Under the pieces are notes generated by a model, which saw only the letters and a list, made by a program, of their open reading frames with translations, ran no database searches and was not told the DNA's origin. A stretch of DNA of 52,249 bases from the NCBI RefSeq assembly GCF_003932785.1, contig NZ_RQYT01000017.1, positions 1 through 52,249 of the forward strand, given 5' to 3'. The translations under genes were made by a program, and so were the position numbers. This DNA is from Arachnia propionica (GTDB lineage Bacteria > Actinomycetota > Actinomycetes > Propionibacteriales > Propionibacteriaceae). Shown here piece by piece: positions 31,551 through 50,509 of the stretch (positions are counted from its first letter, which is position 1; each line of letters begins with the position of its first letter).

Positions 31551-31621
31551 CACGAACCGCCGGGCCGCTTCGGCTGAAACGTTTCAACCGCGGTCTCGAC
31601 GAACCAGGACGGCGGTTCGTG
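31551..31621. repeat. 71-bp element with TTGAAACGTTTCAA-type core, copy 1
   Basis: CACGAACCGCCG (31551-31562) and CGGCGGTTCGTG (31610-31621) are perfect 12-bp inverted ends. The core TGAAACGTTTCA (31575-31586) is off centre. Copies 2 and 3 have the same 71-bp length and the opposite orientation. The 344-bp gap 31413-31756 otherwise holds only the half palindrome and the promoter of the next gene (TAGGCT at about 31700). Confidence 0.85.
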
Positions 31622-31756
31622 CTCGGACTGCGGTGCGACGTGAACCGTGGCCGCTCGCCCTCTAACGTTCTACCACTGTTGGCCTGACGGGGAGACCGAC
31701 TAGGCTGGGTGAACCGGACGCCAAGGTCGACGTCCGGAGTGGACGAAAGGTACATC

Positions 31757-32149
31757 ATGGAGACCACGGAGGCAGTCAGCGAAACCAAAGTCGTCGTGAG
31801 CCGGGTGACCCGGACCCCGCTCAAGGAGGTGTGGGACTTCATCATGAAACCCGAGGGTGTCGCCGCCCTGCTGGGTGAGGGTGGGGTTCTCGGGAACAAG
31901 GGTGAGGACTGGCGGGCCACGGACGGCACGTACGGCATCACCCGCAGCTTCCATCCCCTGGAGCAGATCCGCTTCTCCTGGCACGCGCACGAGGGCGCAC
32001 CCGCCACCCTCGTCGACCTCCAGCTTCACACCGTCGACGACGGCACCGAGGTGAGGCTCAGCCACGACCACCTGCCCGCCGACGCGGACGTCGCGGCCCT
32101 CGAATCCAAGTGGGGCGACGTCCTGGATCGGATCGTCTCGGGTTCCTGA
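31757..32149 (+). CDS. SRPBCC/AHSA1-like protein (130 aa)
   Basis: The pattern S-R-V-T-R-T-P-L-K-E-V-W-D-F-I-M, a central W-R-A-T-D-G-T-Y-G and I-R-F-S-W-H-A..., T-L-V-D-L-Q-L-H-T-V-D-D-G-T-E-V-R-L-S-H-D, and a C-terminal helix match the START/Bet v1-like fold of the AHSA1 family. These bind hydrophobic ligands or modulate Hsp90-like partners; the ligand here is unknown. ATG 31757 follows GAAAGG. A -10-like TAGGCT near 31700 would give a leader of about 45 bases. Confidence 0.82.
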   Translation: METTEAVSETKVVVSRVTRTPLKEVWDFIMKPEGVAALLGEGGVLGNKGEDWRATDGTYGITRSFHPLEQIRFSWHAHEGAPATLVDLQLHTVDDGTEVRLSHDHLPADADVAALESKWGDVLDRIVSGS

Positions 32150-32166
32150 CCCGGACCGGAGCACGA

Positions 32167-32202
32167 GGATGCGCGGGCAGGCGTCCCCCTGCCCGCGCAT
32201 CC
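32167..32202. terminator. Bidirectional hairpin terminator
   Basis: GGATGCGCGGGCAG (32167-32180) and CTGCCCGCGCATCC (32189-32202) form a perfect 14-bp stem with an 8-base loop between two converging genes. Confidence 0.85.
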
Positions 32203-32212
32203 GCTCAACGGG

Positions 32213-32557
32213 TCACTGCTGCGAAGCCGCCGCCAGCTGGTCGGCGAGATTGAAGACCTCCCGAAGCGGCGTCGCCGCCTGGTCGGCCCTGCCGTCCAAC
32301 CCGACGAAGAACCGCGACATCGCGGCCTCCCAGCGCGCAGCGACGGGCGAGGCGGCCAGGTAGGCCTGCGCGGCCTCGTCGTCATCGGTCTCGTAGTAAC
32401 CGATCAGACGGCCCCCCTCGGCGAGGAACAGCGAGTAGTTGCGACGGCCCGCCGCCTCGATCTCCGCGAGCATCTCCGGCCACACCGGGGAGTGCCGGGC
32501 GACGTACTCATCCAGCAGTTCGGGTTTGACCCGCAACTCGAAACACACCCTTGTCAT
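32213..32557 (-). CDS. L-rhamnose mutarotase-like protein (114 aa)
   Basis: Matches the RhaM/YiiL family: F-E-L-R-V-K-P-E-L-L-D-E-Y, H-S-P-V-W-P-E-M-L-A-E-I, G-R-R-N-Y-S-L-F-L-A and I-G-Y-Y-E-T. RhaM interconverts the alpha and beta anomers of L-rhamnose with a His and Tyr; both are present (H22 and Y41). Size is typical (104-115 aa). ATG 32557 follows AGGAGGTG closely. No other rhamnose genes are in the window, so the sugar may differ (a DUF-type member acting on another 6-deoxy sugar is possible). Confidence 0.85.
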   Translation of the reverse strand: MTRVCFELRVKPELLDEYVARHSPVWPEMLAEIEAAGRRNYSLFLAEGGRLIGYYETDDDEAAQAYLAASPVAARWEAAMSRFFVGLDGRADQAATPLREVFNLADQLAAASQQ

Positions 32558-32730
32558 CGAACACCTCCTGTGTCCCCGCATGATGCCAAACCCGGCCCCC
32601 TCCTGTCCTGCCGCGCAATGGATCTGCCCAACCCCACCCCGCCGACACACGTGTCACACCAGCGGCGTAAAGTCCTGACCACGGTGTCCGGCGACGGGGC
32701 CTGGCACCAGACCACTGCAAGGGAGCAACG

Positions 32731-35205
32731 ATGACCGAGGAGCCCAGGAGGGCGGACACTCACGGCAATCCACGACGGCGCTGGGCGCTTCCCGGGGCCG
32801 CGATCGGCGCAATCGGGCTCGCAGGATGCTCGTCCGGCGCTGGCACGGGGGGTGGCCACGTCGGCGGCGAGGCGAACCTCCAGCTTCCCGACCTCAACGC
32901 GGTGACGATGCTGGGGCTGCCGGGTGGCACCCTGCTCGGCCTGGGTCTCATCATCTGCGCGCTGGGGTTGGCCTTCGGCATCCTCACCTACGCGCAGCTG
33001 AAGCGGATGCCCGCCCACGAGGCGATGCGCGAGGTCTCGGAACTCATCTATGACACCTGCCGAACCTACCTGAAGCAGCAGGGCCGTTTCCTCATGCTGC
33101 TGTGGGCGTTCATCGCCGCGATCATCGTCGTCTACTACCTCTTCCTCGCGAACTTCGGGGTGGGCAAGACGGCCGTGGTGATCCTCTTCTCCCTCATCGG
33201 CATGGGTGGTTCCTACGCGGTCGCCTGGTACGGCATCCGCGTCAACACCTTGGCCAATTCCCGCACCGCGCACGCCGCGATGGCGGGCAAGCCGTACCCG
33301 TGCCACGACATCCCCCTGCGTTCCGGGATGAGCATCGGCATGGTGCTGATCTCCGTCGAGCTGGCGATGATGCTCGTCATCATGGTGTTCCTGCCCGGCG
33401 AGATCGCCGGTGCGTGCTTCCTCGGATTCGCCATCGGTGAGTCCCTCGGCGCCTCCGCCCTGCGCATCGCGGGCGGCATCTTCACCAAGATCGCGGACAT
33501 CGGCGCCGACCTCATGAAGATCGTCTTCCACATCAAGGAGGACGACGCCCGCAACCCGGGCGTGATCGCCGACTGCACCGGGGACAACGCAGGCGACTCC
33601 GTCGGCCCCTCCGCGGACGGCTTCGAGACCTACGGCGTCACGGGCGTCGCCCTCATCACCTTCATCCTGCTCGGCATCTCCGACCCGCTGATCCAGGTGC
33701 AGCTGCTGGTGTGGATCTTCGTCATCCGCGCGGTCATGGTGGTGGCCTCGGGCATCTCCTACTACGTCAACGCGGCGATGACCCGCGCCAGGTACGCGCA
33801 GGCCGACGAGATGGACTTCGAGGCGCCGCTGACGAACCTCGTGTGGATCACCTCCATCCTGTGCATCGCCCTCACCTTCGCCACCTCCGCCGCCCTCATC
33901 GGCGGGCTCGGCGACGGGCTGTGGTGGAAGCTGTCCCTCATCGTCAGCTGCGGCACCCTCGCCGGGGCCCTCATCCCCGAGCTGGTCAAGGTGTTCACCT
34001 CCACCAACGCCCGCCACACCCGCGAGGTCGTCGTCTCCTCCAACCAGGGGGGCGCGTCGCTCAACATCCTGTCGGGTCTGGTGGCCGGCAACTTCTCCGC
34101 CTACTGGATCGGCCTGGCCATCACGGGCCTCATGGGGCTGGCCTACCTCATCTCCACCCTCGGGCTGGGTCAGATCATGCTCGCCCCGGCGGTGTTCGCC
34201 TTCGGCCTGGTGGCCTTCGGTTTCCTCGGGATGGGGCCGGTGACGATCGCCGTCGACTCCTACGGCCCGGTCACCGACAACGCCCAGTCCGTCTTCGAGC
34301 TGTCCACCATCGAGGAACTGCCGGGCATCCACGACGACCTGCAGCGCGACTACGGGATCACTGCCGACTTCGAGCGGGCCAAGCACTTCCTGGAGGCCAA
34401 CGACGGGGCGGGCAACACCTTCAAGGCCACCGCGAAGCCGGTCCTCATCGGCACCGCCGTCGTCGGCGCCACCACGATGATCTTCTCCATCATGATGGGG
34501 CTGACGAACAAGCTCACCACGGGGCTGGAGAACCTGTCCCTGCTCCACGCCCCCTTCCTGCTGGGCCTGCTGCTCGGCGGCGCCGTCATCTACTGGTTCA
34601 CGGGGGCCTCGATGCAGGCCGTCACCACCGGCGCATACCGGGCGGTGGAGTTCATCCGCAACAACATGCACCTCGACGGCGAGACGAAGGCCTCCGCGGA
34701 GGACTCCAACAAGGTGGTGGCCATCTGCACCCAGTACGCGCAGAAGGGCATGTTCAACATCTTCCTCGGTGTGTTCTTCGCCACCCTCGCCTTCGCCTTC
34801 GCCGAGCCGTTCCTGTTCATCGGATTCCTCGTCGCCATGGCACTGTTCGGGCTGTACCAGGCCATCTTCATGGCGAACGCGGGCGGCGCCTGGGACAACG
34901 CAAAGAAGCTCGTCGAGGTGGATCTGGCCGCGAAGGGGACGGGCCTGCACGACGCCACCGTCGTCGGTGACACCGTCGGTGACCCCTACAAGGACACCTC
35001 CTCGGTGGCCCTCAACCCGGTCATCAAGTTCTCGACGCTGTTCGGGCTGCTCGCCGTCGAGCTGGCGGTCGCGATCGGCGCGCAGGGCGCATCGACCGTC
35101 GCGCATGTGCTGGCGGTGGTCTTCCTGCTGATCTCCGGCTACTTCGTGTACCGGTCCTTCTACGGGATGCGGATCGGCGAGGACCTGAGAGACATCCAGG
35201 TCTGA
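32731..35205 (+). CDS. hppA: Membrane-bound proton-translocating pyrophosphatase (824 aa)
   Basis: Pumps protons while hydrolysing pyrophosphate. About 16 membrane segments and the family motifs are present: I-K-E-D-D-A-R-N-P-G (substrate-site Asp), D-N-A-G-D-S-V-G-P-S-A-D, and D-N-A-K-K near the end with G-D-T-V-G-D-P-Y-K-D-T-S. G-N-T-F-K-A in place of G-N-T-x-A-A points to a potassium-independent enzyme. The V-S-E-L-I-Y-D-T-C-R-T-Y-L segment near 100 marks a subgroup with an N-terminal signal-like extension. Unusually, L30-A-G-C33 follows a hydrophobic stretch and forms a lipobox. ATG 32731 has GGGAGC upstream. Confidence 0.96.
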   Translation: MTEEPRRADTHGNPRRRWALPGAAIGAIGLAGCSSGAGTGGGHVGGEANLQLPDLNAVTMLGLPGGTLLGLGLIICALGLAFGILTYAQLKRMPAHEAMREVSELIYDTCRTYLKQQGRFLMLLWAFIAAIIVVYYLFLANFGVGKTAVVILFSLIGMGGSYAVAWYGIRVNTLANSRTAHAAMAGKPYPCHDIPLRSGMSIGMVLISVELAMMLVIMVFLPGEIAGACFLGFAIGESLGASALRIAGGIFTKIADIGADLMKIVFHIKEDDARNPGVIADCTGDNAGDSVGPSADGFETYGVTGVALITFILLGISDPLIQVQLLVWIFVIRAVMVVASGISYYVNAAMTRARYAQADEMDFEAPLTNLVWITSILCIALTFATSAALIGGLGDGLWWKLSLIVSCGTLAGALIPELVKVFTSTNARHTREVVVSSNQGGASLNILSGLVAGNFSAYWIGLAITGLMGLAYLISTLGLGQIMLAPAVFAFGLVAFGFLGMGPVTIAVDSYGPVTDNAQSVFELSTIEELPGIHDDLQRDYGITADFERAKHFLEANDGAGNTFKATAKPVLIGTAVVGATTMIFSIMMGLTNKLTTGLENLSLLHAPFLLGLLLGGAVIYWFTGASMQAVTTGAYRAVEFIRNNMHLDGETKASAEDSNKVVAICTQYAQKGMFNIFLGVFFATLAFAFAEPFLFIGFLVAMALFGLYQAIFMANAGGAWDNAKKLVEVDLAAKGTGLHDATVVGDTVGDPYKDTSSVALNPVIKFSTLFGLLAVELAVAIGAQGASTVAHVLAVVFLLISGYFVYRSFYGMRIGEDLRDIQV

Positions 35206-35232
35206 CATCCCATTGGTCAGTGGTGACTGGTT

Positions 35233-35256
35233 CCGGCGGCGAGGCATCGCCGCCGG
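35233..35256 (+). terminator. Hairpin after hppA, 36 bases before the DUF4282 gene
   Basis: CCGGCGGCGA (35233-35242), GGCA loop, TCGCCGCCGG (35247-35256): a perfect 10-bp stem. It may terminate hppA or attenuate read-through into the next gene. Confidence 0.6.
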
Positions 35257-35291
35257 TTCCCGTTCCACCCGTTTCTTGGAAGGATTGCCCC

Positions 35292-35750
35292 ATGAGCACG
35301 CCACAGCAGCCGTACGACCCCAACGTCCAGGGCAACGCCTGGGAGCAGTCGCAGCCCACCGGCCAGGTCTGGGATCAGCAGTCGATGGAGGCCTGGGGAA
35401 CCCAGCCGCCGCAGGCCCCCGAGCCCCCTGCGGCCCCAGCCCCGGCTCCCGCCCCGCCGCGGCCGTCATCGGGGTTCATCAGCTCGCTGCTCGACCTCAA
35501 CTTCTCCTCCTTCCTCACCCTCAGGGCCATCAAGGCCACCTATCTGGTGCTGACGGCTGCGTTCGGCCTGCTGGTCCTCATCGACGTCATCACCGCCTTC
35601 ACCCGGGATGCGGGGCACGGCCTGGTGCAGCTCCTCATCGGTGCCGTCACCTTCGTCGCCGGGGCCATCGCGATCCGGGTGGTGCTGGAGGTCGCGTTCG
35701 CGGTGGTGCGCGGCTCCGAGGACATCCGCAGCCAGCTGACTCCACGATGA
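35292..35750 (+). CDS. DUF4282-type membrane protein (152 aa)
   Basis: A 60-residue Gln/Pro/Ala-rich cytoplasmic N-terminus (MSTPQQPYDPNVQG..., poly-PAP at 45-58) precedes a DUF4282-like domain: S-L-L-D-L-N-F-S-S-F-L-T-L, an I-K-A-T-Y-L-V-L-T-A-A-F-G membrane segment, a second one (L-L-I-G-A-V-T-F-V-A-G-A-I-A-I) and an R-V-V-L-E-V-A-F-A-V-V-R tail. The family is of unknown function. ATG 35292 follows GGAAGG with 7 bases between. It is probably co-transcribed with or attenuated from hppA. Confidence 0.85.
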   Translation: MSTPQQPYDPNVQGNAWEQSQPTGQVWDQQSMEAWGTQPPQAPEPPAAPAPAPAPPRPSSGFISSLLDLNFSSFLTLRAIKATYLVLTAAFGLLVLIDVITAFTRDAGHGLVQLLIGAVTFVAGAIAIRVVLEVAFAVVRGSEDIRSQLTPR

Positions 35751-35784
35751 CCTGATCCCCCGCTCGTCGCCCCCGGTGAACCGG

Positions 35785-35790
35785 TAGGTT
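35785..35790 (+). promoter_or_regulatory. -10 box for the femAB-like gene
   Basis: TAGGTT, 7 bases before GTG 35798; no Shine-Dalgarno. Confidence 0.45.
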
Positions 35791-35797
35791 TGGGGCT

Positions 35798-36925
35798 GTG
35801 AGCATCCGCGTCGACACCATCCCCCCCGCCCAGCATCTCGAGTTCATCGAGGCGCTGGGCGAGGCCAGTTTTCTGCAGCTCCCCTCCTGGGGTCAGGCCA
35901 AGCCCGAATGGCGCAGCGAGTCCATCGGTTTCTTCGACGGTGACACCCTCACCGGGGTGGGGCTGGTGCTGTACCGCCAGCTGCCGAAGCTCAAGCGGTA
36001 CCTCGCCTACCTGCCGGAGGGGCCGGTCCTCGACTGGGAACGCACCGACGTCGAGGCCCATCTCGACGCGCTCGTCGCCCATGCCCGTCGCCGGAAGGCG
36101 TTCGCCGTGCGGATCGGCCCGACGGTGGTGCACCGACGCTGGCTCGCCCCCACCGTGAAGGCCGCCATCGCCGACGAGCAGATCTCGGTGCTCTCCGAGG
36201 CCGCCCCGGATGAGACCACCCTCGTCGGGACCCGGGTGATGCGGATGCTGGAGCATCTCGGCTGGCAACCCCAGGGCGAGGGACACGGCTTCGCCGCCGG
36301 GCAGCCGAAGTTCAACTACCAGGTGCGGCTCACGGATGTCGACGGCGCGGCCCTCAGCGACGACGCCCTGCTCAAGGGCATGAACCAGCTGTGGCGTCGC
36401 AACATCAAGAAGGCCGAGAAGCTCGGCGTCACCGTGACCCGCGGCGAGCGCGCCGACCTGGCCCGGTTCCACGAGATCTACCTGGAGACCGCAGCCCGCG
36501 ACGGGTTCGTCGGGCGCGGGCTGGACTACTTCGAGACGATGTGGGACGCCCTCAACCAGGAGACCCCGGATCGGATGCGCGTCTATCTCGCCGAGCACGA
36601 GGGCGACCTCGTCGCCGCGACCACCTGGATCCGGGTGGGGCGGCACGCCTGGTACTCCTACGGTGCCTCCACCACCGCGAAGCGGGAGGTCCGCGGGTCG
36701 AACGCGATCCAGTGGCAGATGATGCGCGACGCCCGGGACGCGGGCGCGACGGTCTACGACCTCAGGGGCATCACCGAGGGGCTGGCCGCGGATGACCCGG
36801 AGATCGGCCTCATCCAGTTCAAGGTGGGCACGGGCGGCGAGGCCGTCGCCCACGTCGGGGAATGGGATCGACCCATCAACCCGCTGCTCCACTTCGCCTT
36901 CCAGCAGTACCTGAAGCGACGGTGA
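35798..36925 (+). CDS. FemAB/FemX-family aminoacyltransferase (375 aa)
   Basis: Transfers amino acids from aminoacyl-tRNA to the peptidoglycan stem peptide (family knowledge). Evidence: F-L-Q-L-P-S-W-G-Q-A-K-P-E-W at the start, paired GNAT-like domains, W-R-R-N-I-K-K-A-E-K and L-E-T-A-A-R-D-G-F in the second domain, and the conserved-type I-Q-F-K-V-G-T-G near the C-terminus. The coiled arm typical of FemA is short, as in FemX. GTG 35798 starts directly after TAGGTT and 7 bases. One base separates it from the Alr-like gene, so they are translationally coupled; together they may shape the interpeptide bridge. Confidence 0.9.
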   Translation: MSIRVDTIPPAQHLEFIEALGEASFLQLPSWGQAKPEWRSESIGFFDGDTLTGVGLVLYRQLPKLKRYLAYLPEGPVLDWERTDVEAHLDALVAHARRRKAFAVRIGPTVVHRRWLAPTVKAAIADEQISVLSEAAPDETTLVGTRVMRMLEHLGWQPQGEGHGFAAGQPKFNYQVRLTDVDGAALSDDALLKGMNQLWRRNIKKAEKLGVTVTRGERADLARFHEIYLETAARDGFVGRGLDYFETMWDALNQETPDRMRVYLAEHEGDLVAATTWIRVGRHAWYSYGASTTAKREVRGSNAIQWQMMRDARDAGATVYDLRGITEGLAADDPEIGLIQFKVGTGGEAVAHVGEWDRPINPLLHFAFQQYLKRR

Positions 36926-36926
36926 C

Positions 36927-37952: not shown

Positions 37953-37955
37953 TCC

Positions 37956-38354
37956 TCAGCCCAGCACCGGATCAATGGTGGGGAGCCCCAAGTACTCCGC
38001 CGCTGCGGCCATCCTGGCGTCATGTGTGGCGATCGTGATGGGTTGACCCACCAGGACAGCCGTTGCGAGATGCAGCGCATCAAGGGTCTTGACGTGGCGG
38101 CCGATGGCTTCAGCCAGCACATGGGTCTCGCGGCTGATGTCCCACAACCCGACACGCGCGAGAAGAGGCTGGGCTTCCACCAGAGGGCGACCGTCCCGTC
38201 GTAGTGTTCGAATGATCTCTGTCCGTAGCAGTCGTGAGGAGACGAGGAAGCGGTCCGGGCTCTCAAGCCACCTCAGAAGCCGAGGTCGCTGCGGAACATT
38301 CAGGATCGCGCGGAGCGCCACAGAGGAGTCGAGGTAGACGAGGGCTCCCTGCAT
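37956..38354 (-). CDS. vapC: VapC-type PIN-domain toxin (132 aa)
   Basis: A PIN-domain endoribonuclease: D9 in Y-L-D-S-S, E46 in T-E-I-I-R-T, D92 in K-T-L-D-A-L-H-L-A-T-A and D112 in T-H-D-A-R-M form the acidic metal site. VapC toxins cleave tRNA or rRNA when the antitoxin is degraded. It is downstream of, and 3 bases from, the antitoxin gene. Length is normal. Target RNA unknown. Confidence 0.9.
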   Translation of the reverse strand: MQGALVYLDSSVALRAILNVPQRPRLLRWLESPDRFLVSSRLLRTEIIRTLRRDGRPLVEAQPLLARVGLWDISRETHVLAEAIGRHVKTLDALHLATAVLVGQPITIATHDARMAAAAEYLGLPTIDPVLG

Positions 38355-38357
38355 GAC

Positions 38358-38636
38358 TCAATGATCCCCGCGCATCTCACGGAGCAGTTCCTCGACCTCG
38401 GCGTCCGTGTAGGCAGGACCGCCCGGATGATCCGGCCATGGTGGAGGGTTGGGCGAGGGCGGCGTGTAACGGCCCTCACGCTCCAACCTCAACAGCGTCG
38501 CCTCGAAGTCGTTGACCGTGCTGATCCGCCAGCGTGGCCTGCCTCGTTCGGTCACGATGACGTCGTTGTCGTCGTCAACCTGCTGAAGGGTGGCGGCCGT
38601 GTTCTGGTTCAGCTCGCGTTTGGTGACCGTACGCAT
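38358..38636 (-). CDS. vapB: VapB/Phd-type antitoxin (92 aa)
   Basis: The N-terminus (MRTVTKRELNQNTAATLQQV, then VIVTERGRPRWRIS) has the Phd/YefM-type DNA-binding fold (R-E-L-x-x-N-x-x-x-x-L, then V-x-V-T-x-x-G-x-P). The C-terminal half is Pro-rich and presumably toxin-binding. ATG 38636 was chosen because TACATT is 7 bases upstream with no Shine-Dalgarno and because the family starts there. The palindrome overlapping the -10 supports autoregulation by the toxin-antitoxin complex. Confidence 0.88.
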   Translation of the reverse strand: MRTVTKRELNQNTAATLQQVDDDNDVIVTERGRPRWRISTVNDFEATLLRLEREGRYTPPSPNPPPWPDHPGGPAYTDAEVEELLREMRGDH

Positions 38637-38643
38637 GAGACCA

Positions 38644-41087: not shown

Positions 41088-43364
41088 CCGGTTCCCGGGC
41101 GCGGGATCGTCACCTCCGTCCTGCTCCTCATCGGGGGGTTCGGGCTGTTCCTGGCTGGGCGTCGGGGTCGGCCTCGGTTCCACGGGTGAACTGGGCTCCG
41201 CCGTCGGGGCCGCCGACCTCGTGGGTTTGGACGTGGGTGAGGGGCGGGGTTCATCCGGCGGGGGCGCCGACGCCGTGGCCTGGGCGGTGGTGGGTGGCGC
41301 GGGTTGCGGCTCCGTCTGCTCGGCGGAGGCGACTGGTGCCTCGGTCTCCGTCTCGGACGGCTCCTCGGTGGTCTCGACGATGCTGGGCTCGGCGGTCGCC
41401 GTCGGGGAGGCGGACTGTCCCTTCAGCCGTTCGGGGGTGTCGAAGTCGAGCTTCTCCATCCCCTCGGATGCGGTCGTCATGTAGTCCACCCACGTCATGA
41501 GGGGGTAGGAGGAGCCGAAGAAGGTCTGGTCCTGCGGCCGCTTGTACGGTTCGAGGTCCTCGTTGCCGGAGTCGCCCGCCACGTACATGACGGCCGTGGA
41601 GATCTGCTTGGTGTAGCCGACGAACCACGCCGAGGTGATGGTGTCGTCGACGCCGTTGGTCCCGGTCTTGCCCGCCACCGGCCGGTCGAGCGCGGAGGCC
41701 TTCTTGCCCGTGCCCTCGGAGACGACGGAGGTCAGGGCGTCGGTGACGTGCGCCGCGACGTTGGCGTCGATGTTCTGGGCGGGTTCGTGTTTCGCCTCGT
41801 AGAGGACGTTGCCGTGCCGGTCGGTGACCTTGGTCACGAAGTGGGTGGGCTTGTACCGGCCGGAGTCGGCGAGGGTGGCGTACGCGTTGGCCATGTTCAG
41901 CGGGCTGACCTCGGCGGCACCGAGGGCGATCCGGTTGTTGAGGTCCCAGCCGGGGCCCTCCGGGGCGCCCGCGTCGTTGGCGGCCTTGACGACCTCCTGG
42001 GGGCCGTTGTCCATCTCCTGGGTCATGTCGACGAAGGCGGTGTTGATGGACTCCGCGATGGAGCGACGGAGGGTGACGTCGCCGTACTGGTGGCTGAACT
42101 CGTTGCGGATGGGCACCGGGTCGCCGCGCGGGGTGAAGGTGTCGCCCTTGAGGATGCTGTCGAGGGTGTAGCCGTTGCGCAGCCCGGCGATGGCGGCGAA
42201 GGTCTTGAAGGTCGACGCGGCGGGGCGGGGGGTCGTCGCCCAGTTGCGGGAGTTCTCGACGTAGTCGGGGCCGCCGTACATCGCGAGCACCCCGCCCGTC
42301 GCGGTGTCGACGGAGGCGAGGGCGACGTGCAGTTGCGCGGGGTCCTGCGGGGTCTTGGCGTCGGCGGCCGCCTGCTCGGTGTACTGCTGGGCGGTGGCGA
42401 CGGCGTGGTCCTGCATCGTCTTGTCGAGGGTGGTGACGATCTTCAGGCCGCCGCCCTGGACCTGCTCCTCGGCGAAGCCGAGCGATTCGAGTTCCGCCTC
42501 GATCTGGGAGACGAGGAAGCCCTTGGGTCCGCCGTAGCGGTCGGACTTGGGGACCTCGGGGAACTCGGGGAGGGCCCCGTGGACGGCGTCGTGGTCGGCC
42601 TGGGTGATGTAGCCCTCGGCGAGCATCTGCCCGAGCACGTACTGGTAGCGGCCGAGGAGGCGTTCGCGGTGCTTCTCACCGCCGGAGGGGTTGAACCCGG
42701 CCGGGTTGTTGAGGATGGCGGCGAGGGCGGCGGCCTCGGAGAGGCTGAGTTCGGCGGCGGACTTGAGGAAGAAGGAGCGTGCGGCGGCCTCGATGCCGTA
42801 GGCGCCGCGTCCGAAATAGATGGTGTTGAGGTAGCCCTCGAGAATCTTCTCCTTCGGCACCTCGCGGCCCATCTTGATGGCGAGGATGAGTTCCCGGACC
42901 TTGCGTTGGGCGCTGCGTTCGGAGGTGAGGTAGAGGATCTTGATGTACTGCTGGGTGATCGTCGAGCCGCCCTGGACCTCGCCGCCGCGCAGGATGTTCC
43001 ACATGCCCCGGGCCATGCCGGAGATGGAGAAGCCGGGGTCGGTGAAGAAGGAGGAGTTCTCCGCCGCGACCACCGCGTCCTTCATGACCTGCGGCATCTC
43101 GGCGTAGTCGAGGGTGACGCGGTTCTGCACGGCCAGCGACCCGAGCTGCGACTCACCGTCGCGGTAGTAGATGAAGGTGGTGTTGGTGGTGAAATCGCTG
43201 TTCGGGTCGGGCAGCTTCGTGGTGGCGTAGAGGTAGAAGAAGGTGCCCACTCCCGTGAGCCCGATGAGGACGAACAGCGCCAGGAACCCCAGGGCGATCC
43301 GCCCGAGGATCCTGCGGGCGCGGGGCTTGCCGCGCCGGGCCTTCGGCTTCTTCTGCTCAGACAT
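41085..43364 (-). CDS. Bifunctional class A penicillin-binding protein (759 aa)
   Basis: Polymerises and cross-links peptidoglycan outside the membrane. Residues 1-18 are basic, 20-48 form the membrane anchor, then a GT51 transglycosylase domain (E-N-S-S-F-F, G-G-S-T-I-T-Q-Q, K-E-K-I-L-E-G-Y-L-N, R-G-A-Y-G-I-E-A-A) and a transpeptidase domain with S-T-F-K (S-x-x-K), S-I-N (S-x-N) and K-T-G-T. The last 110 residues are a Pro/Ser/Thr/Glu-rich extracellular tail (PTATAEPSIVETTEEPSETE...). TAGGCT-GGAGAC before ATG 43364 is identical to the site before the PAC2 gene. Confidence 0.96.
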   Translation of the reverse strand: MSEQKKPKARRGKPRARRILGRIALGFLALFVLIGLTGVGTFFYLYATTKLPDPNSDFTTNTTFIYYRDGESQLGSLAVQNRVTLDYAEMPQVMKDAVVAAENSSFFTDPGFSISGMARGMWNILRGGEVQGGSTITQQYIKILYLTSERSAQRKVRELILAIKMGREVPKEKILEGYLNTIYFGRGAYGIEAAARSFFLKSAAELSLSEAAALAAILNNPAGFNPSGGEKHRERLLGRYQYVLGQMLAEGYITQADHDAVHGALPEFPEVPKSDRYGGPKGFLVSQIEAELESLGFAEEQVQGGGLKIVTTLDKTMQDHAVATAQQYTEQAAADAKTPQDPAQLHVALASVDTATGGVLAMYGGPDYVENSRNWATTPRPAASTFKTFAAIAGLRNGYTLDSILKGDTFTPRGDPVPIRNEFSHQYGDVTLRRSIAESINTAFVDMTQEMDNGPQEVVKAANDAGAPEGPGWDLNNRIALGAAEVSPLNMANAYATLADSGRYKPTHFVTKVTDRHGNVLYEAKHEPAQNIDANVAAHVTDALTSVVSEGTGKKASALDRPVAGKTGTNGVDDTITSAWFVGYTKQISTAVMYVAGDSGNEDLEPYKRPQDQTFFGSSYPLMTWVDYMTTASEGMEKLDFDTPERLKGQSASPTATAEPSIVETTEEPSETETEAPVASAEQTEPQPAPPTTAQATASAPPPDEPRPSPTSKPTRSAAPTAEPSSPVEPRPTPTPSQEQPEPPDEEQDGGDDPAPGNR

Positions 43365-43370
43365 GTCTCC

Positions 43371-43376
43371 AGCCTA
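43371..43376 (-). promoter_or_regulatory. -10 box for the PBP gene
   Basis: TAGGCT on the minus strand, 6 bases (GGAGAC) before ATG 43364. Confidence 0.45.
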
Positions 43377-43452
43377 AAGGTTCATTTCAAGATGGCTCAC
43401 CCCGCGGTACACCAAGGTTGGCCTGCCATCCGTTCAGCCAGAGCAAAGTTCA

Positions 43453-43520
43453 GAGGGTGCGCGGAGAGGGGATCGTCACGAGGATCGGCACGGCAGCCTC
43501 CCGACAAGGCGGTCGACGGG
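43453..43520. mobile_element. Truncated 160-bp element, left part
   Basis: AGAGGGTGCGCGGAGAGGGG and the following GATCGTCACGAGGATC match the left end of copy B for about 68 bases (roughly 80% identity), then stop 39 bases before a copy of the 71-bp element. Confidence 0.65.
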
Positions 43521-43558
43521 CACCGACGCGCCACCCGTCGACCCACCCCGACCACCGG

Positions 43559-43629
43559 CACGAACCGCCGCCCTGCGTCCACGAGGCCCCGTTTGAAACG
43601 TTTCAAGCGAAGCAGAACGGCGATTCGTG
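43559..43629. repeat. 71-bp element, copy 2
   Basis: CACGAACCGCCG (43559-43570) and CGGCGATTCGTG (43618-43629) are inverted ends with one mismatch; TTGAAACGTTTCAA is at 43593-43606. It is in reverse orientation relative to copy 1. Its right end directly joins the duplicated gene fragment at 43630. Confidence 0.85.
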
Positions 43630-43662
43630 ACCCCCTTCCCCAACCAGCTGATCCAGGAGCTC
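43630..43662. repeat. 33-bp duplicate of an internal segment of the downstream gene
   Basis: Thirty-three bases are identical to 45220-45252 inside the 696-aa protein gene (encoding a TPFPNQLIQEL peptide). After that, similarity decays (GGCAGGCGG-like residue). The fragment abuts copy 2 of the 71-bp element. Confidence 0.75.
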
Positions 43663-43764
43663 CACGCAGGACAGGCGGCCAGGTGGGGGACCGGCCTGGA
43701 CGACCTCCAGCGACGGGACCGCTGTAGATTCAGCACTGCCGACGTGATTCCCCGAGGAGACGAC

Positions 43765-45855
43765 ATGGGCTTCATCGACCACGTGGTCGGGATGGCCGAG
43801 AAGGCGCGCCGCGCCGAGAACGACCCCGACGCCGACACCCGGCGCTGCGCCGTGGAACGCGGCTCGAGGTGGCGTGAGGTGCTCGCGGGGATGCTGTCCG
43901 GCAGGCTCCGGATCGGCAGCCGCACCCCCGTCGAGGACCTCCCCGTGTGGGTGACCCCCGAGGTGGTGCGCGGCGGCTTCGTCACCGGGCGTGCCCTCGC
44001 AGCCAACCCCCTCGACCCCGACGAGGCGGAACTCGCCGACGAGCTCGGCCTGCCCCGGACCCGCCGCGCCCTGTTCGACTGGTGGATCAGCCCCGAGGGC
44101 CGGGCCGTCCTCCTCTCCCTCCTCGACGACGACGCCTTCTCCGCCCACCTCTCCGAGCACACCGCCCTCATGGCCGTGGCGCTGCTCCACGACCGCGGCG
44201 ACGAGGAGCGGGCGGCCCGCCTCATCGCGGAACTCGCACCGTTCCGCGACCGACTGCGGTTCGTGCCGCACGCCACCACCCCATCGACCGCCACACCCGG
44301 CACCGTCCACCGCCACACCGTGGCCCGCGCCCGCGCCGACCTGGCAGGCTTCCGAACACCCTGGAAGGTGCTGGCGCAGCAGGAGGCTCTCACCGTCTGG
44401 ATCCCGCTGCGCGACGAGGTGGTCACCTTCCTCGCCGAACTCCTCACCCGGGACGAGCCCCGCCCCGCCGACCTCGAACGCGCGGCCCGCCTCGTCGCCA
44501 TGTACCGCGACGCGCTCCGCACCCACCCCCATTGCCGCAAGTACCGGCGGCGGGGCGAGAACCTGCCCCTGCTCATCGAGGAGCTGGAGCAGCTGGGCTC
44601 CGCGCCGTGGCCCTCGCGGCGGGCACGCCGCGTCCTCGACGACATCGAACGCAAACGGGGCCTCCCCCACAGCGACCGCGCCCGTCGACTCCGCGCCGAG
44701 CAGGACGCCCAGGCATCCCGGCCGTTGCACGCGGAGATCGGGGCGATCCTCGCCGACCGTCTCTCCGAGCTCCGCGACGACGAGGGCATCCCCGACGACC
44801 TCCTCGACGACCTCACCGCGCCCATCACCGTCGACGAGGCCACCGCCCGCGTCCCAGCGGGCACCGAGGTGCCCGAACGTCTCGGACTCAGTCTCGAACG
44901 GGCCGTCGCGCGCCCCCTCCGCCTGCTCGCCCACTCCCGGGGCATCATCCCGTCGTGCGAGGTGCTGGCCGAGGTCGCGCCCCAGGTGACGGCCTGGCGG
45001 CTGCGGGAGGGACGTGACGTCCGGGTGGGTCGGCTCCTCGGGGCCACCCACCTGGCCTTCAGTCGTCGACGCAGCCTGCTGCTCACCGACCTGCGCCACC
45101 AGGTGGGACTCGACGAGCTACCGTGGATCCGCGACCTCCCCGGCGCCGACCACGACCCCGACGCGCTCCGCCGGGCCGCTTGCGACCTCGCGGCCCGCGC
45201 CCTCGCCTCCTACCCCTTCACCCCCTTCCCCAACCAGCTGATCCAGGAGCTCGACCACCTCACCCGGCAGGCGGGCGACGACCTCCCGTGGACCCGCGAA
45301 CTGGCGGCCGACATCTTCGAGTGCGCCTTCAGCCCCACCTTCGCCCGCGCCGCCCGCGAGGCCGCCCCGCTGCTGCGCGGCACCCTGTACGAGCGCTACT
45401 ACGGCCTCGACACCGACCTCCTGAGCCGCGTCGACGCCGCCGCGTTCACCCGCTGGTGCCTCACGGCGGCCCCTCCGACCTGGCGGCCCGGCGAATGGTC
45501 GGTCGCGGTGCACGGGGCGATCATCGAGCGGCAGCAGATCGCCACCACCCACAACCTCGCGACGGCGGTCGCCCTCGGGGTCGAACCCGTCGACGGCTGG
45601 GAGCAGGCCGGGAACAGGGCGATCGAGTACGCCCTGTGGCACCTGCGACACGACCCGGAGCCGCGTCGGGCGGCGCGGGCGTGGCGGCAGGGGGTGTTCC
45701 ACCTGTCGATGGCGGGTCTCGACGCGGTCCTCGAGGGCCCCTGGTGGAAGGACCTGTTCGCCGACGACTGCGCCCACCTCCGCGACGACCTGCAGCGCGC
45801 CATGGCGGGCGAGCCGGTCACCCCGCTGCTCGGCTGGCGGGTCAGCTGCCCGTAG
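43765..45855 (+). CDS. Large unknown Arg-rich protein (696 aa)
   Basis: ATG 43765 (MGFIDHVVGMAEKARRAEN) follows GAGGAG with 5 bases between; a -10-like TAGATT (43725-43730) lies in the leader. The frame is open upstream through the duplicated fragment but that is not native. The protein is soluble, mostly helical and Arg/Glu-rich, with no signal peptide, transmembrane segment, P-loop or nuclease motif I can see. Not recognised. Its end overlaps the convergent SGNH-hydrolase gene by 14 bases. The strong GC3 bias supports a real gene. Confidence 0.72.
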   Translation: MGFIDHVVGMAEKARRAENDPDADTRRCAVERGSRWREVLAGMLSGRLRIGSRTPVEDLPVWVTPEVVRGGFVTGRALAANPLDPDEAELADELGLPRTRRALFDWWISPEGRAVLLSLLDDDAFSAHLSEHTALMAVALLHDRGDEERAARLIAELAPFRDRLRFVPHATTPSTATPGTVHRHTVARARADLAGFRTPWKVLAQQEALTVWIPLRDEVVTFLAELLTRDEPRPADLERAARLVAMYRDALRTHPHCRKYRRRGENLPLLIEELEQLGSAPWPSRRARRVLDDIERKRGLPHSDRARRLRAEQDAQASRPLHAEIGAILADRLSELRDDEGIPDDLLDDLTAPITVDEATARVPAGTEVPERLGLSLERAVARPLRLLAHSRGIIPSCEVLAEVAPQVTAWRLREGRDVRVGRLLGATHLAFSRRRSLLLTDLRHQVGLDELPWIRDLPGADHDPDALRRAACDLAARALASYPFTPFPNQLIQELDHLTRQAGDDLPWTRELAADIFECAFSPTFARAAREAAPLLRGTLYERYYGLDTDLLSRVDAAAFTRWCLTAAPPTWRPGEWSVAVHGAIIERQQIATTHNLATAVALGVEPVDGWEQAGNRAIEYALWHLRHDPEPRRAARAWRQGVFHLSMAGLDAVLEGPWWKDLFADDCAHLRDDLQRAMAGEPVTPLLGWRVSCP

Positions 45856-47440
45856 CGGGCAGCCCCGGGCGCGACCTGCGCGTCGGCTCGGACGGCTGCC
45901 GCTCCGGGGCCTTCCCCGGCGCGGTGGCCGACGGGGCCGGTGCTGGGGTTCCCGGGGTCGGGGTCGGGCTGGGTGCCGGGCTCGGGACGTCCTCCACGGC
46001 CTCGGTGATCCCCTCCTTGTCGGTGGTGGGGATACCGGGGTCCGCGTCGCACACGTCCCCGACGCCATCGCCGTCGTGGTCCTCCTGCCCGTGGTTCGCG
46101 GCATCCGGGCAGTTGTCCTGGGCGGCGGGGATGCCGTCGCCGTCGCTGCTGACATCGACCTCAGCGGTACCGACGGCGGTGCGGCCCTGCGAGTCGGTCA
46201 CCCGCAGCGCGACCTCCCCGACGAACTCGTCCGGCCAGCTGTGGTCGAGGGTGGGGCCGCCCTCCACCTCGAAGACGCCGTCGCCGTCGAGATCCCACTC
46301 GAAGCGGTCGAGGGTCCCGGACGGGGTGAAGGAGGCCCGGCCGTCCAACGTCACCGACTCCCCCGTGGCAAGGACATACGGCCCCTGGATCCAGGCGAAG
46401 GGCTGCTCGGCCGCGGCCGGACGGGCGTCGTCGTCGAGGGTGGCGACGTGGCCGAGGGTCACCGGACGGGTGCTGTCCGGCACCCCGACCCGGTTGCGCA
46501 GCTGGGCGGCCAGCTGGTCGTGACCGATGAGGTTCGGGTGGTACCACTCCTGGTACTCCCACGAGAACCGCGACTCGGTGCGCCCGGACTCCCCAAGCCG
46601 CCCCTCGGTCTCCAGGAACTCGTTGAGCCAGCGATAGTCGTTGCGGGAGCCGGAGCTGGGGTCGGGTTCGTGACCCGCGAACGCCGACTGCACCGAGTCG
46701 ATGTAGCTCACCCGCTGCCGGGACCCGGCGTTCCACTCGGCGACGGTGGCGGCCTGGGCCTGCGCGGCCTCGGCGCCGACGGAGCGCACCTCCGTCGCGG
46801 CCGGGTAGTTCAGCCGCTCCTTGCACCGACCCCAGCTGCGTCGGAGGCATTCGCTGAGGACGTAGCCGGGACGGTCGAGGCTGAGGTGGGGGTAGCCGAT
46901 GAGCACGATCCGCGCGTGGTCGCCGGTCAGCCGTTCGTCGAGGGCGCGGAGCAGCCGGAGCATCCGGTCCTTCAGGTCCCCCCGCACGAAGGTGCGCGCC
47001 CGGTCGACGGCGTCGCGGCAGTCGGTGGCGTCGCGCATCCCGACGACGAAGCACTCGGAGAGGATGCTGGCGAAGCCCGCGTCGTTGCCGCCGATGGTGA
47101 GCATGACGAGGTCGGCCTGACGCGGCACCTGAGGGATCTGGTTGCGGATGACGTCGTCGATGGTGTTCCCGGACCAGGCGAGCACCGTCAGGTTCGCGTG
47201 GACGCCCTGCCCGTTGAGCCAGTCGACGTAGCGGTGGCCCCAGTTGGCGCGGCTGCGGAAGGAGCCCTGCGGCCCGTAGTACGACCCGGCCCCGTTCCCT
47301 GCGGAGTAGGAGTCACCGAGGACGACGACGCTGAGCTGCTGCCCCGCGCGGGGGTCGGCGTGGGACGGCACGGTGCCGAGCATCAGCACCGCCGCGATGA
47401 GACAGGCGAGGAACGTGGTCAGGCGGCGGGCTGCGGTCAT
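45842..47440 (-). CDS. Secreted SGNH-fold hydrolase with PKD-like and calcium-binding repeats (532 aa)
   Basis: A signal peptide (about 1-28, cut after SHA) is followed by an SGNH/GDSL esterase domain: block I V-V-L-G-D-S-Y-S-A-G-N-G-A (nucleophile S44), block III T-I-G-G-N-D-A-G and block V W-Y-H-P-N-L-I-G-H. A PKD-like domain (about 360-440, G-P-Y-V-L-A-T-G-E-S-V-T-L-D-G) and a thrombospondin-type calcium repeat (D-G-D-G-I-P-A-A-Q-D-N-C-P-D, D-H-D-G-D-G-V-G-D-V-C-D) follow, then a Pro/Thr linker. It ends L-P-A-T-G-S directly before the stop. It likely hydrolyses an ester outside the cell. GAGGAG precedes ATG 47440; transcribed with the lipoprotein gene. Confidence 0.92.
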   Translation of the reverse strand: MTAARRLTTFLACLIAAVLMLGTVPSHADPRAGQQLSVVVLGDSYSAGNGAGSYYGPQGSFRSRANWGHRYVDWLNGQGVHANLTVLAWSGNTIDDVIRNQIPQVPRQADLVMLTIGGNDAGFASILSECFVVGMRDATDCRDAVDRARTFVRGDLKDRMLRLLRALDERLTGDHARIVLIGYPHLSLDRPGYVLSECLRRSWGRCKERLNYPAATEVRSVGAEAAQAQAATVAEWNAGSRQRVSYIDSVQSAFAGHEPDPSSGSRNDYRWLNEFLETEGRLGESGRTESRFSWEYQEWYHPNLIGHDQLAAQLRNRVGVPDSTRPVTLGHVATLDDDARPAAAEQPFAWIQGPYVLATGESVTLDGRASFTPSGTLDRFEWDLDGDGVFEVEGGPTLDHSWPDEFVGEVALRVTDSQGRTAVGTAEVDVSSDGDGIPAAQDNCPDAANHGQEDHDGDGVGDVCDADPGIPTTDKEGITEAVEDVPSPAPSPTPTPGTPAPAPSATAPGKAPERQPSEPTRRSRPGLPATGS

Positions 47441-47453
47441 GGTTCTCCTCGGT

Positions 47454-47858
47454 TCACTGGTAGGTCAGGGTCACCCTCAGCCCCGGCCCGGGGCACTCGT
47501 CGGCGTGGGCGTCGACGAGGAGCACGAGCGTGTCGGAGCCGTGCGACTTGTGGGCGACGACGGTGTTCGGGGTGCTGAGGTCGGCCTGCTCCGTCCATCC
47601 CTCGGAACGGGCGGTCGCCAGCACCTGGGAGACGGCGGTGTCCCCGTCGACCTCCAGGGAGAAGCACCTCGTGACATGGGGCTGGCCGGGTTTGTCCTTG
47701 TCGGGCCGGGATTCCTCGGTGGAGACGACTGCGAGTCCCTCCCAGTCGGTCTTGGAGATGGACTCGCGACGCAGCACGTCGAGCAGGGCGGCGGCGTCGC
47801 TCTGACAGGCGCTCAGGGCGAGCACGGCCCCTAGGGCGACCAGTGCGTGGATTCTCAC
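47454..47858 (-). CDS. Small lipoprotein (134 aa)
   Basis: A lipoprotein signal peptide (VRIHALVALGAVLALSAC, lipobox L-S-A-C) makes it membrane-anchored on the outer face. The mature domain has a D-W-E-G-L-A-V-V-S segment, one Cys pair (C in T-R-C-F-S-L, C in D-E-C-P-G) that could form a disulfide, and no known family. I chose GTG 47858 because GGGAGG is 8 bases upstream; GTG 47867 is an alternative. It lies 13 bases upstream of the SGNH hydrolase gene, so the two proteins probably work together at the cell surface. Confidence 0.8.
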   Translation of the reverse strand: MRIHALVALGAVLALSACQSDAAALLDVLRRESISKTDWEGLAVVSTEESRPDKDKPGQPHVTRCFSLEVDGDTAVSQVLATARSEGWTEQADLSTPNTVVAHKSHGSDTLVLLVDAHADECPGPGLRVTLTYQ

Positions 47859-47980
47859 GACCCCCACCTCCCATCGGGTATCGACGTTGATCCCTTGTCG
47901 TTGACAGCAGCCTAAGCGTTGCCCCGCGGGGCCGCAAGGGTGCGGGGACGACTCCGAGATCCCCTGACGGGGGCGGGCCC

Positions 47981-47986
47981 TAGGAT
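47981..47986 (+). promoter_or_regulatory. -10 box for the 792-aa protein gene
   Basis: TAGGAT, 6 bases before ATG 47993; no Shine-Dalgarno, so probably leaderless. Confidence 0.4.
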
Positions 47987-47992
47987 TCGGCC

Positions 47993-50371
47993 ATGGACAC
48001 AGCGTGGGACCGAATCGAGGACCTCGTCCTGACCGAACGTTCGATGCAGGAGATCGTCCCGCTGCTCCGGGACCTCCCGGCGCCGTCCGGTTCGGCCGCG
48101 AAGCGGCTCAGCGACCTGGGCAAGCGGATCTGGCAGGAGACCGAGCCCGGCCAGCGGGCGCCGTCGCATGGCGCCAGGGACCGGTCCCAGTCGCGCCTCC
48201 ACGTCGTCGCGGCCGCCCTGCCGTTGACCCCGCTGCAGTTCCTCAAGCACTCGGACAAGCGGGATCTGCTGCCGCTCCTCGACGATCCCGCCACCCGCGA
48301 CGCGGTGCTGGAACTCTTCGCGCGACGCGGCGAGCAGTGGCTGACGGAGTACTGCGAACGCTCGTACTCCTCCGCTGACAACGCCGTTCGTTCCAGCACA
48401 CTGGCGCACCGGTTCCCGGTCCTGTTCGACCTGCCGCTGCCCGCCGATCCCCGCTACTGGCGGGGCTGGGTGGCGGGTGACCCGTTCCCCCGCCCGGGCG
48501 TGCGCTGGCAGGAGTACTTCCTCGCCGCCTGCGCCGCCCCGGAGGCGTTCCAGGGCTCCTTCCTCACCCGCGACGAGCACCGGCGGCGGGTGAGGATCGA
48601 CGAGCTGCGCACCGTCGAACCCATCGACGACGACGCCCTCCTCGACGCCCTGGTGCGCGCCGTCGCCCGCCTGGAGCGGCCCGCGAACCAGCGTCACCTC
48701 ATGATGTGGCTGGAGGACCTGGGGCTGCTGCCCCGCCTCCACGAGAAGGCCGACTTGCTGGTCACCCTCATCTCCCTCCTCGACTCCACCGTCGTGAAGG
48801 AGCTGCTGGCGCAGCTGCTGCCCGACGCCACACCCGAGCGGCTGGCGGCCCTCGCCCCGGAGGTGCTGAGCCGCAAGGAGAAGCTGATGCGGCGGCAGGT
48901 CCTGCGGGCGCTGAAGCGGATCGACGCGCCGTCGCCGGAGCTGGTGGAGCTCGTCGCGACGGCGACCGCGGACCCGGACGCGGAGATCGTGAGGCTGGCG
49001 GCGGGACTCACCGAGGCCTGGGGCGGCACCGCGACGGTGGGGCTCGGGCTGTGGCAGGAGCCGTCGCTGCCGGAGGTGGTGGAGCTCGACGAGGTGAGGG
49101 CCTCGGATCTGTCCGGGCTGTTGGGCCGAGCCGTGGAGCAGGATGACCTCGCGGTGGGTGGAGAGGAGCTCCTCTGGATGGAGCAGGTGTTGGCCGCACT
49201 CGTGGCTCATGGGCATGAGCACGGCCGGGCGGCCACCACTGTCCTGGTGGAGGACGCTCTGACGGCCAACGTGAATCAGTCGCTACCGAGGACCCTGCTG
49301 AACATCTGGGTCGAGGCGGAGCACGGCAACGGCAGGTTCCCTCTGCCCGGATGGCGGGACGGCCTGGACCGTTGGGCCGCGGCCAGGTTCCGTGACGCTC
49401 TGCGCGCGGTCGGCGACATCCCGTGCCTGCTGTCCACTCCGACACACACGGATGGCCATCTCGCCTGGCCGGTGCTGGTGGCGCGGCTCGAACGGTACCG
49501 GGAGGCCGGGGTGGAGCCAGTCGCCTCGGACCTCCACGTCGCGTTGGGCCGGGTCTTCGACGACGACGGCTCGCCCGTCCCCGTCGCCGAGGAGACGATC
49601 TCAGCGTGGCGGGCCTCCCCACCCGGAGAGCCGAGCCTGATGGTGGCGGAACAGTCATTGCTCAAGCGCATGCTGAAGGGGCAGCGTCACGGATTCAAGG
49701 TGGTGGGCGATGAGTCGCCTCTGCTGGATGTTCTGGATCTGGGAGTGCCGTGGAATCGTTCGCCGTGGTGGAGACCAGGGCTGACCGACTTCGGGTGGGG
49801 TGTCCGGCTGCTGCCCCGCCATCCCGGCCAGGCGTGGGGACATCTGTTGCGGTCCCGAAGGCAGTGGTCCGCCGCGTCCTGGTTGATGGCGATCGGCGGA
49901 TCGGTGCCCCGGCTCGGAGCACTGGGCTCCTTCGCAGCGATGGTCCTGACGGCGACCGGACAGCGGGAGCAGGAAGAGGAGATGGCGACGGCCCTGGTCA
50001 CCCTCTGGGACGAGGGCCGGGTCACGGCCGACGATCTCGTCCAGGCATGGCACTCACCCTGGTGGCAGGAGTGGTGGTGGCGCGGTCAACGGAACCCGTT
50101 GCCAACAGCACGGGTGCTCGTCAAGGCGGCCGAGCTGGGCGGGCTGCAGCTGGCCTGGCCGCTGCTGACCGAGGTGGCGGAGGAGATCGCCGCGATGGAT
50201 CCACTGCCGAAGGAGGCCCACACGACGCTGGAGGCCGTGCTCCGTTACCTCCCGGAGGTTCCCCGGATGCCGCCCCTGCCGGCGATCACGGCCCTGGCCG
50301 AGCGCAGCTCGTCGTCGAAGGCGATCCGCGCGGCCAAGCAGATCGCGAAACTGCTGACCCACCCGTCCTGA
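47993..50371 (+). CDS. Large helical protein, possible DUF6493-like (792 aa)
   Basis: Mostly helical, HEAT-like segments (for example L-L-A-Q-L-L-P-D-A-T-P-E-R-L-A-A-L) fill the first 390 residues and recall DUF6493-type proteins near MoxR/VWA clusters; this is tentative. The second half changes character: W-W-R-P-G-L-T-D-F-G-W-G and W-W-Q-E-W-W-W-R-G segments are Trp-rich, and codon third positions have visibly less GC from about 49100 on. The gene may be a fusion or a recombinant. No signal peptide, membrane segment or catalytic motif. ATG 47993 has TAGGAT 6 bases upstream. Confidence 0.75.
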   Translation: MDTAWDRIEDLVLTERSMQEIVPLLRDLPAPSGSAAKRLSDLGKRIWQETEPGQRAPSHGARDRSQSRLHVVAAALPLTPLQFLKHSDKRDLLPLLDDPATRDAVLELFARRGEQWLTEYCERSYSSADNAVRSSTLAHRFPVLFDLPLPADPRYWRGWVAGDPFPRPGVRWQEYFLAACAAPEAFQGSFLTRDEHRRRVRIDELRTVEPIDDDALLDALVRAVARLERPANQRHLMMWLEDLGLLPRLHEKADLLVTLISLLDSTVVKELLAQLLPDATPERLAALAPEVLSRKEKLMRRQVLRALKRIDAPSPELVELVATATADPDAEIVRLAAGLTEAWGGTATVGLGLWQEPSLPEVVELDEVRASDLSGLLGRAVEQDDLAVGGEELLWMEQVLAALVAHGHEHGRAATTVLVEDALTANVNQSLPRTLLNIWVEAEHGNGRFPLPGWRDGLDRWAAARFRDALRAVGDIPCLLSTPTHTDGHLAWPVLVARLERYREAGVEPVASDLHVALGRVFDDDGSPVPVAEETISAWRASPPGEPSLMVAEQSLLKRMLKGQRHGFKVVGDESPLLDVLDLGVPWNRSPWWRPGLTDFGWGVRLLPRHPGQAWGHLLRSRRQWSAASWLMAIGGSVPRLGALGSFAAMVLTATGQREQEEEMATALVTLWDEGRVTADDLVQAWHSPWWQEWWWRGQRNPLPTARVLVKAAELGGLQLAWPLLTEVAEEIAAMDPLPKEAHTTLEAVLRYLPEVPRMPPLPAITALAERSSSSKAIRAAKQIAKLLTHPS

Positions 50372-50438
50372 ACCACCCGTCCTGAGACCCCGCCCTCCCG
50401 TCGACCTCGCTCCCCCGTCGTCCTCGCCCCCCGGCAGG

Positions 50439-50509
50439 CACGAACCGCCGTTCTGCTTCCGCGAGACCAAGATTGAAACGTTTCAAGCAAAGTGAACCGG
50501 CGATTCGTG
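50439..50509. repeat. 71-bp element, copy 3
   Basis: CACGAACCGCCG (50439-50450) and CGGCGATTCGTG (50498-50509) flank TTGAAACGTTTCAA (50473-50486). Same length and orientation as copy 2; it lies between the 792-aa gene and the tRNA. Confidence 0.85.

Follow-up and report, generated by a model that had tools for sequence, protein, structure and literature searches.

The 52,249-nucleotide stretch of the Arachnia propionica genome analyzed here (NCBI RefSeq assembly GCF_003932785.1, contig NZ_RQYT01000017.1, positions 1 to 52,249; hereafter, the window) contains three copies of a short repeat that is probably a non-autonomous, non-coding dispersed palindromic element of ~71 bp (77 bp with the outer bases), carried into gaps between genes by a trans-acting enzyme. 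The copy number of the element, its anatomy, its intergenic location, its uneven presence among relatives and the differences in core class at shared sites were observed directly; mobility, a hairpin intermediate and a trans-acting enzyme are inferred. Folding predictions for a single strand of the element give a long hairpin that has a second hairpin inside it, and the enzyme would read the conserved ends and copy the element into intergenic sites, an insertion that would leave no visible target duplication; the core would be an internal part of the element that is exchanged between copies rather than a host operator.

Each of the three window copies is 71 bp long, is bounded by the ends CACGAACCGCCG and CGGCG[AG]TTCGTG and contains TGAAACGTTTCA, in agreement with an earlier note on this DNA. 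Copy 1 (31551..31621, minus strand; 31548..31624 with the outer bases that are conserved among copies) has its core palindrome TGAAACGTTTCA at 31575..31586, copy 2 (43559..43629, plus strand) at 43594..43605 and copy 3 (50439..50509, plus strand) at 50474..50485; all three belong to core class I. The 12-mer CACGAAYCGCCG occurs seven times in the window with at most one mismatch, six of these matches being element ends, compared with 1.86 expected, and seven matches were reached in none of 100 shuffles. In the whole genome of 3.49 Mb, the exact end pattern has 22 forward and 25 reverse matches, many of which represent one place on both strands, and the reversed pattern, used as a control, has none. 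A covariance model based on 29 copies (24 from this genome and 5 from A. propionica OH887) yields 129 matches that correspond to 65 distinct places, 64 detected on both strands and one on a single strand; weak copies may have escaped it, as 150 of the 2127 first-look candidates were scored. When the DNA covering all 65 places was searched with a profile, 67 non-overlapping matches were obtained, the extra two being partial. Thus, the window copies are far from being the only three.

Nearly all copies of the element (65 of the 67 profile matches) are located between genes, against an intergenic fraction of 0.122 for the genome, which bears out the claim of the earlier note, made for three copies, that this is a real and intergenic unit. 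The genes were called with a hexamer caller trained on open reading frames (ORFs) filtered by the GC content at codon positions; an earlier caller put 45 of the 67 matches in intergenic regions, and its training set was judged to hold false antisense ORFs, such as 41304-43727. Of the 57 elements with genes on both sides, 35 are flanked by tandem genes, 12 by divergent genes and 10 by convergent genes, compared with 25, 15 and 17 expected from gap length (p 0.02), a weak tandem bias that is measured against an approximate background, namely, the window and 196 kb of OH887 DNA. The elements thus show no preference for convergent gaps, where terminators would be expected to cluster.

The element has a distinct plan: inverted ends (GGT)CACGAAYCGCCG, inner arms and an off-centre core palindrome. 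Among the 60 copies that were scored after dropping seven matches shorter than 69 bp, the length is 71 bp in 44 and 72 bp in 12; matches of 56 to 75 bp that retain both ends also occur. Conservation reaches ~3 bases past each end and then fades, with ACC on the right and a G-rich sequence on the left, the final base of which is G or T, resulting in a unit of ~77 bp. By a motif rule, the cores of the 60 copies divide into 29 of the GAAACG type and 31 of the TGTCAACGCTGCCA type. The earlier description of the unit thus holds for the 71 bp and the ends but not for the outer limit, and the core that it described is not universal. Inspection by eye also revealed three places where one normal end is combined with an alternative end, CACCAACTTGCGGG or similar (L118:2514-2573, L118:3835-3881 and L117:7596-7666).

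Complete units fold better than shuffled sequences: this is the case for six sequences folded as RNA, with z from -2.9 to -5.7, and for copy 2 folded as DNA, with z of -3.4 and -4.0 for the two strands. The four single arms tested, taken from copies 2 and 3, have no folding advantage over shuffled sequences (z from -0.5 to 1.6). When the inner arms are pooled over four genomes, the match within a copy is 0.537 compared with 0.476 for arms re-paired across genomes, so the inverted inner sequence tends to be lineage-specific.

The distribution of the element among relatives is highly uneven. In a species-level genome scan for the end pattern, which may leave out records of the window's own genome, 38 of the 40 stretches found come from three Propionibacteriaceae genomes (A. 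propionica OH887 and the metagenome-assembled genomes S30M_Sa_58 and SRR15732359_bin.1); the other two, from Streptomyces, are 59-bp perfect hairpins and were taken as chance occurrences. Across 41 genomes, the covariance model has matches in nine: 119 in the window's own genome, 57 and 31 in two congeneric genomes, G006 and G010, respectively, and 1 to 5 in six others, and 22 of the 24 other same-genus genomes searched, all except G006 and G010, have 0 to 5 each. In OH887 (G047), 69 model matches represent 47 places. The copies in G010 are 71 bp long in 12 of the 13 cases with exact ends and, by eye, have two types of interior, whereas those in G006, picked by their exact ends, are 81-82 bp long (82 bp in 13 of 14) and have another interior; across four genomes, the ends are conserved and the interior varies. 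Carriage by phages or plasmids was rejected: copy 2 has no match in phage or plasmid collections at an E-value of 0.01, and the end pattern has none in viral contigs.

Comparison of orthologous sites shows that occupancy differs between the window's own genome and OH887. At window sites 1 and 3, the orthologous gaps of OH887 (78 and 31 bp long, respectively) contain no element; at site 2, the right flank has no match in OH887. Hence, these two copies do not lie at orthologous positions in all relatives, and the suggestion of the earlier note that the repeat is a miniature element is supported by the 65 intergenic places, the abundance in some genomes only and the two empty sites. The empty sites were rejected as clean insertion footprints, given that the intergenic DNA is too diverged and that, in genome G005, apparent remnants are seen at the positions of two elements of another family that is discussed below. 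Both flanks of nine own sites are present among 35 OH887 loci, a set skewed towards the regions of OH887 elements; seven of these sites carry the element in OH887 and two are empty. At two of the seven shared sites (C132:8530 and C14:39925), the core class differs, and at C132:8530 the orientation is also reversed in OH887 despite 93-98% flank identity; at these sites, either another copy must have replaced the element or the insertions must have been independent. Recombination may account for several of the shared sites, which sit in tracts of 94-100% identity. Tracts of ~95-100% identity connect the window's own genome with OH887 (L097 vs L161, L102 vs L166), compared with 75-85% in long matches that involve the window region, which suggests recent recombination between species. 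Separately, near L153:6740-6860, at the place orthologous to element 3, a palindrome with 18-bp arms was noticed by eye in G010.

In sum, the element was most likely mobile in the past. Several observations, however, weigh against mobility or against the hairpin-copying scheme. Most of the comparable sites, seven of nine, are shared with OH887, and the apparent remnants in G005, which lacks two elements that are present in G004, suggest that absence of an element can result from loss. The target duplications that the earlier note proposed to look for did not materialize: nothing like one is detectable in 60 copies, with 8 of the 294 combinations of offset and length (120 re-pairings per combination) passing z 2.8 and with flank identity of 26-55% in these eight, where 22-45% is expected. 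The copies are substantially diverged, with a mean identity of 75% among 62 copies, 96% in the best pairs and no two identical, so that any spread or activity may be old. The arms of 29 copies lack covariation (89.5% of the cells paired compared with 89.3% in shuffles), and the two arms of the same copy in the window's own genome match less than re-paired arms (0.525 vs 0.609), as they also do in G006 (0.631 vs 0.705), because left and right differ systematically; in OH887 and G010, there is no clear difference. No autonomous copy of the element was seen. Finally, the transposase family that includes RAYT (Y1_Tnp, PF01797) has no member in 31 genomes of the genus, including G000, G006 and G010 (OH887 is outside this sample), while the same profile is positive in 5 of 14 control genomes; RAYT was accordingly rejected as the mobilizer.

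Another gene that was considered as a possible mobilizer is flanked by inverted elements both in the window's own genome, on C14, and in OH887 (L001:1546-2427 and L168:10749-11603). Its protein shows weak similarity to REase_MTES_1575 and, in OH887, also to AbiEi_4 and DUF559, all below the curated cut-offs in a protein scan; in a whole-genome search, the OH887 gene is just over the DUF559 cut-off. The two OH887 elements that flank this gene are almost identical and share an unusual left end. Within the 1.53 Mb examined, no homologs of the gene were detected away from this locus, apart from a fragment in G010. The DUF559 matches in eight genomes do not track the element numbers (G001 has six such matches and no elements of either type, and G004 has one match and 57 elements of the GTCGAARSS family described below), and for this reason, the gene was rejected as well.

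If the element is not mobile, it could be a fixed DNA site, maintained by selection, the two ends of which are bound at a set spacing by a host protein of architectural or regulatory function. The strong conservation of the 12-15 bp ends, the asymmetry between the left and right arms, the main lengths of 71-72 bp (own genome, OH887 and G010) and 81-82 bp (G006), which are approximately one helical turn apart, and the seven of nine comparable sites common to the own genome and OH887 are all compatible with such a role. We nevertheless consider it unlikely, given the near absence of matches from most of the other genomes of the genus, the two window sites that are empty in OH887, the existence of matches as short as 56 bp with both ends in place, and a genomic placement with nothing beyond a weak tandem bias. 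A separate reading, prompted by the remark of the earlier note that the palindrome has the form of a LacI-type operator, is that the core functions as one. The core sequence is that of Escherichia coli Cra operators, matching the fruB proximal operator as printed in PMC11157272, and the class I core, indeed, has the operator feature of a pseudo-palindrome with a central CG. However, in a search for the exact 12-mer, all 18 sites of TGAAACGTTTCA in the genome are inside elements, although an operator of the host would be expected at promoters elsewhere too, and these sites account for 18 of the 67 element matches, the full 14-mer core being present in just 7. About half of the copies have another core, the class II copies and those of G006 lack the LacI-like sequence, the core class differs at two of the seven shared sites, and a Pfam-based survey of the neighbors recognized no sugar gene beside the three window copies, as the earlier note had itself remarked. 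The operator reading is, therefore, not supported beyond the resemblance, and a LacI- or Cra-type operator that regulates neighboring genes from a mobilized unit appears highly improbable.

The palindromic structure could alternatively function at the RNA level, for example, as a bidirectional terminator or an RNase III site. The stable hairpins predicted for six sequences, including both strands of copy 2, are in line with this possibility, but an RNA element with a covarying stem was rejected on the strength of the 29 copies without covariation, convergent gaps are not over-represented, and the window contains no Rfam match at gathering scores except for tRNA, so that we regard an RNA hairpin as very unlikely. 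Miniature inverted-repeat transposable elements (MITEs) are short, multi-copy and non-coding, with terminal inverted repeats, and the element might be a decayed classical MITE of a DDE transposon, the autonomous parent of which has been lost. Terminal inverted repeats and diverged, intergenic copies would fit such an origin. The lack of a convincing target duplication in 60 copies does not, and nor do the ten single or partly degraded ends viewed among the matches listed (112 exact ends), which are truncated or mutated elements or coding sequence, with no transposon end recognized, although no comparison with an insertion sequence library and no search for a DDE transposase was made. A decayed MITE is, in our assessment, improbable.

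The element, which we still consider to be a probable mobile palindrome, is REPIN-like and MITE-like in behavior but fails defining features of both that were tested, and is a variant rather than a member of either group. The REPINs of Pseudomonas fluorescens SBW25 and other bacteria, as described in the parts of PMC3116915 used here, are extragenic hairpins with two conserved inverted ends and a less conserved spacer, and the element shares with them the inverted conserved ends, the variable spacer, the extragenic location and the capacity to form a hairpin. The 71 bp between the first residues of the two 16-mers in the GI type of REPIN (PMC3116915) is a coincidence of number. In contrast to REPINs, the ends of which overlap repetitive extragenic palindromic (REP) sequences, the four arms of the element that were tested are not REP-like hairpins, and, unlike REPINs, which are linked to the RAYT (Y1) transposase in the same source, the element comes from a genus in which 31 genomes have no PF01797 protein. 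From MITEs, the element differs in that neither a convincing target duplication nor a parent transposon was found. The CGTC-tagged REPs, for which the authors report no dedicated transposase in the text consulted (PMC3733652), are similarly dispersed palindromic repeats, but neither a CGTC tag nor a REP palindrome was recognized by eye in the element; the term "actinobacteri" is absent from the main text of that article. Stem-loop families covered in PMC2267715, including those of Corynebacterium and Mycobacterium, are likewise repeated and foldable, a likeness in form, and "propionibacterium" is absent from the main text of that article. No report of the present repeats was recognized in the open-licence literature, which is weak evidence of absence.

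The genes adjoining the window copies encode an AHSA1-like protein, a penicillin-binding protein, a DUF7824 protein, two proteins without a Pfam match and tRNA-Ala. Copy 1 lies between a plus-strand gene that ends at 31412 and the AHSA1-like gene that starts on the plus strand at 31739; copy 2, between the penicillin-binding protein gene, which starts at 43364 on the minus strand, and a plus-strand gene with a likely ATG at 43765, a start chosen by eye; and copy 3, between the plus-strand DUF7824 gene that ends at 50371 and the tRNA-Ala at 50609, downstream of which is an Abi_2 family gene (51063-52034). A second dispersed repeat with TTCGCCTGYCTTG-type units (31421..31550) directly abuts copy 1, and another dispersed repeat (43447..43518) is located ~40 bp from copy 2. 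Genome-wide, 26 of the 67 elements have another multi-copy repeat within 30 bp, compared with 33 of 1817 control positions, which were drawn from all DNA rather than from intergenic DNA only. The repeat that adjoins copy 1 belongs to a family of ~200 bp, composed of iterated direct and inverted TTCGCCTGYCTTG units, that, in the cases inspected, often abuts the 71-bp elements (also at L100, L093 and other loci of this genome). Elements were further noticed beside an ATPase-like gene, so identified by eye, that is apparently split into two ORFs (L093:2721-4113) and on both sides of an intact DUF4143/AAA_14 gene (L052:1622-2857).

Some members of the genus without the window element have inverted-repeat families of their own. 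A scan of ~215 kb from each of two such genomes, G003 and G004, revealed elements of similar size with other ends, namely, GTCGAAACCA (71 bp) in G004 and GTCGAAGGGT (80-81 bp) in G003. With the units as delimited here, the window family and both of these families have CGAA at positions 3-6, which suggests, without proving, common descent. A third family, of 62 bp, in G003 has TGAGATGGGT ends and no CGAA, which speaks against a single plan for all; copies with these ends are located at L160:9794, L184:1399, L187:1818 and L187:2887, with TTGAGCA-type outer flanks. The pattern GTCGAARSS-N-SSYTTCGAC, with 62 to 88 bp allowed, is present in 21 of 39 genomes of the genus, with the highest forward counts in G003 (84), G004 (57), G021 (55), G002 (41), G044 and G054 (30 each) and G050 (28); matches to the reversed control number 0 to 2, and the pattern itself is absent from the window's own genome, G010 and G006. 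Among 117 genomes of the order, counts of at least 23 are confined to this genus and one other genus of the family, g8. The length classes are not strict, as shown by G044, with a range of 62 to 86. The GTCGAARSS elements resemble the window element in their inverted ends, CGAA at positions 3-6, similar lengths and numbers reaching 84 copies per genome, and differ from it in the end sequences and in that the G004 units extend into longer outer inverted repeats; judging from this anatomy, the two are possibly related. More tentatively, and as a conjecture that is more readily doubted than accepted, these families could make up a genus-wide class of RAYT-free, REPIN-like hairpin elements with lineage-own ends (CACGAAYCGCCG, GTCGAAACC and GTCGAAGGG) and one conserved plan, mobilized by an unrecognized enzyme of Actinomycetota.

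The Actinobacteridae sampled in PMC6006769 have, according to the portion of that survey cited here, only Y1 genes of subclass 1.1 (IS200-type). REPIN-like populations in such a lineage would mean that another mobilizing enzyme, or another route, multiplies short palindromes. The genus itself provides a natural comparison: the number of GTCGAARSS matches varies from 0 to 84 per genome, and few genomes have the CACGAAYCGCCG type in abundance.

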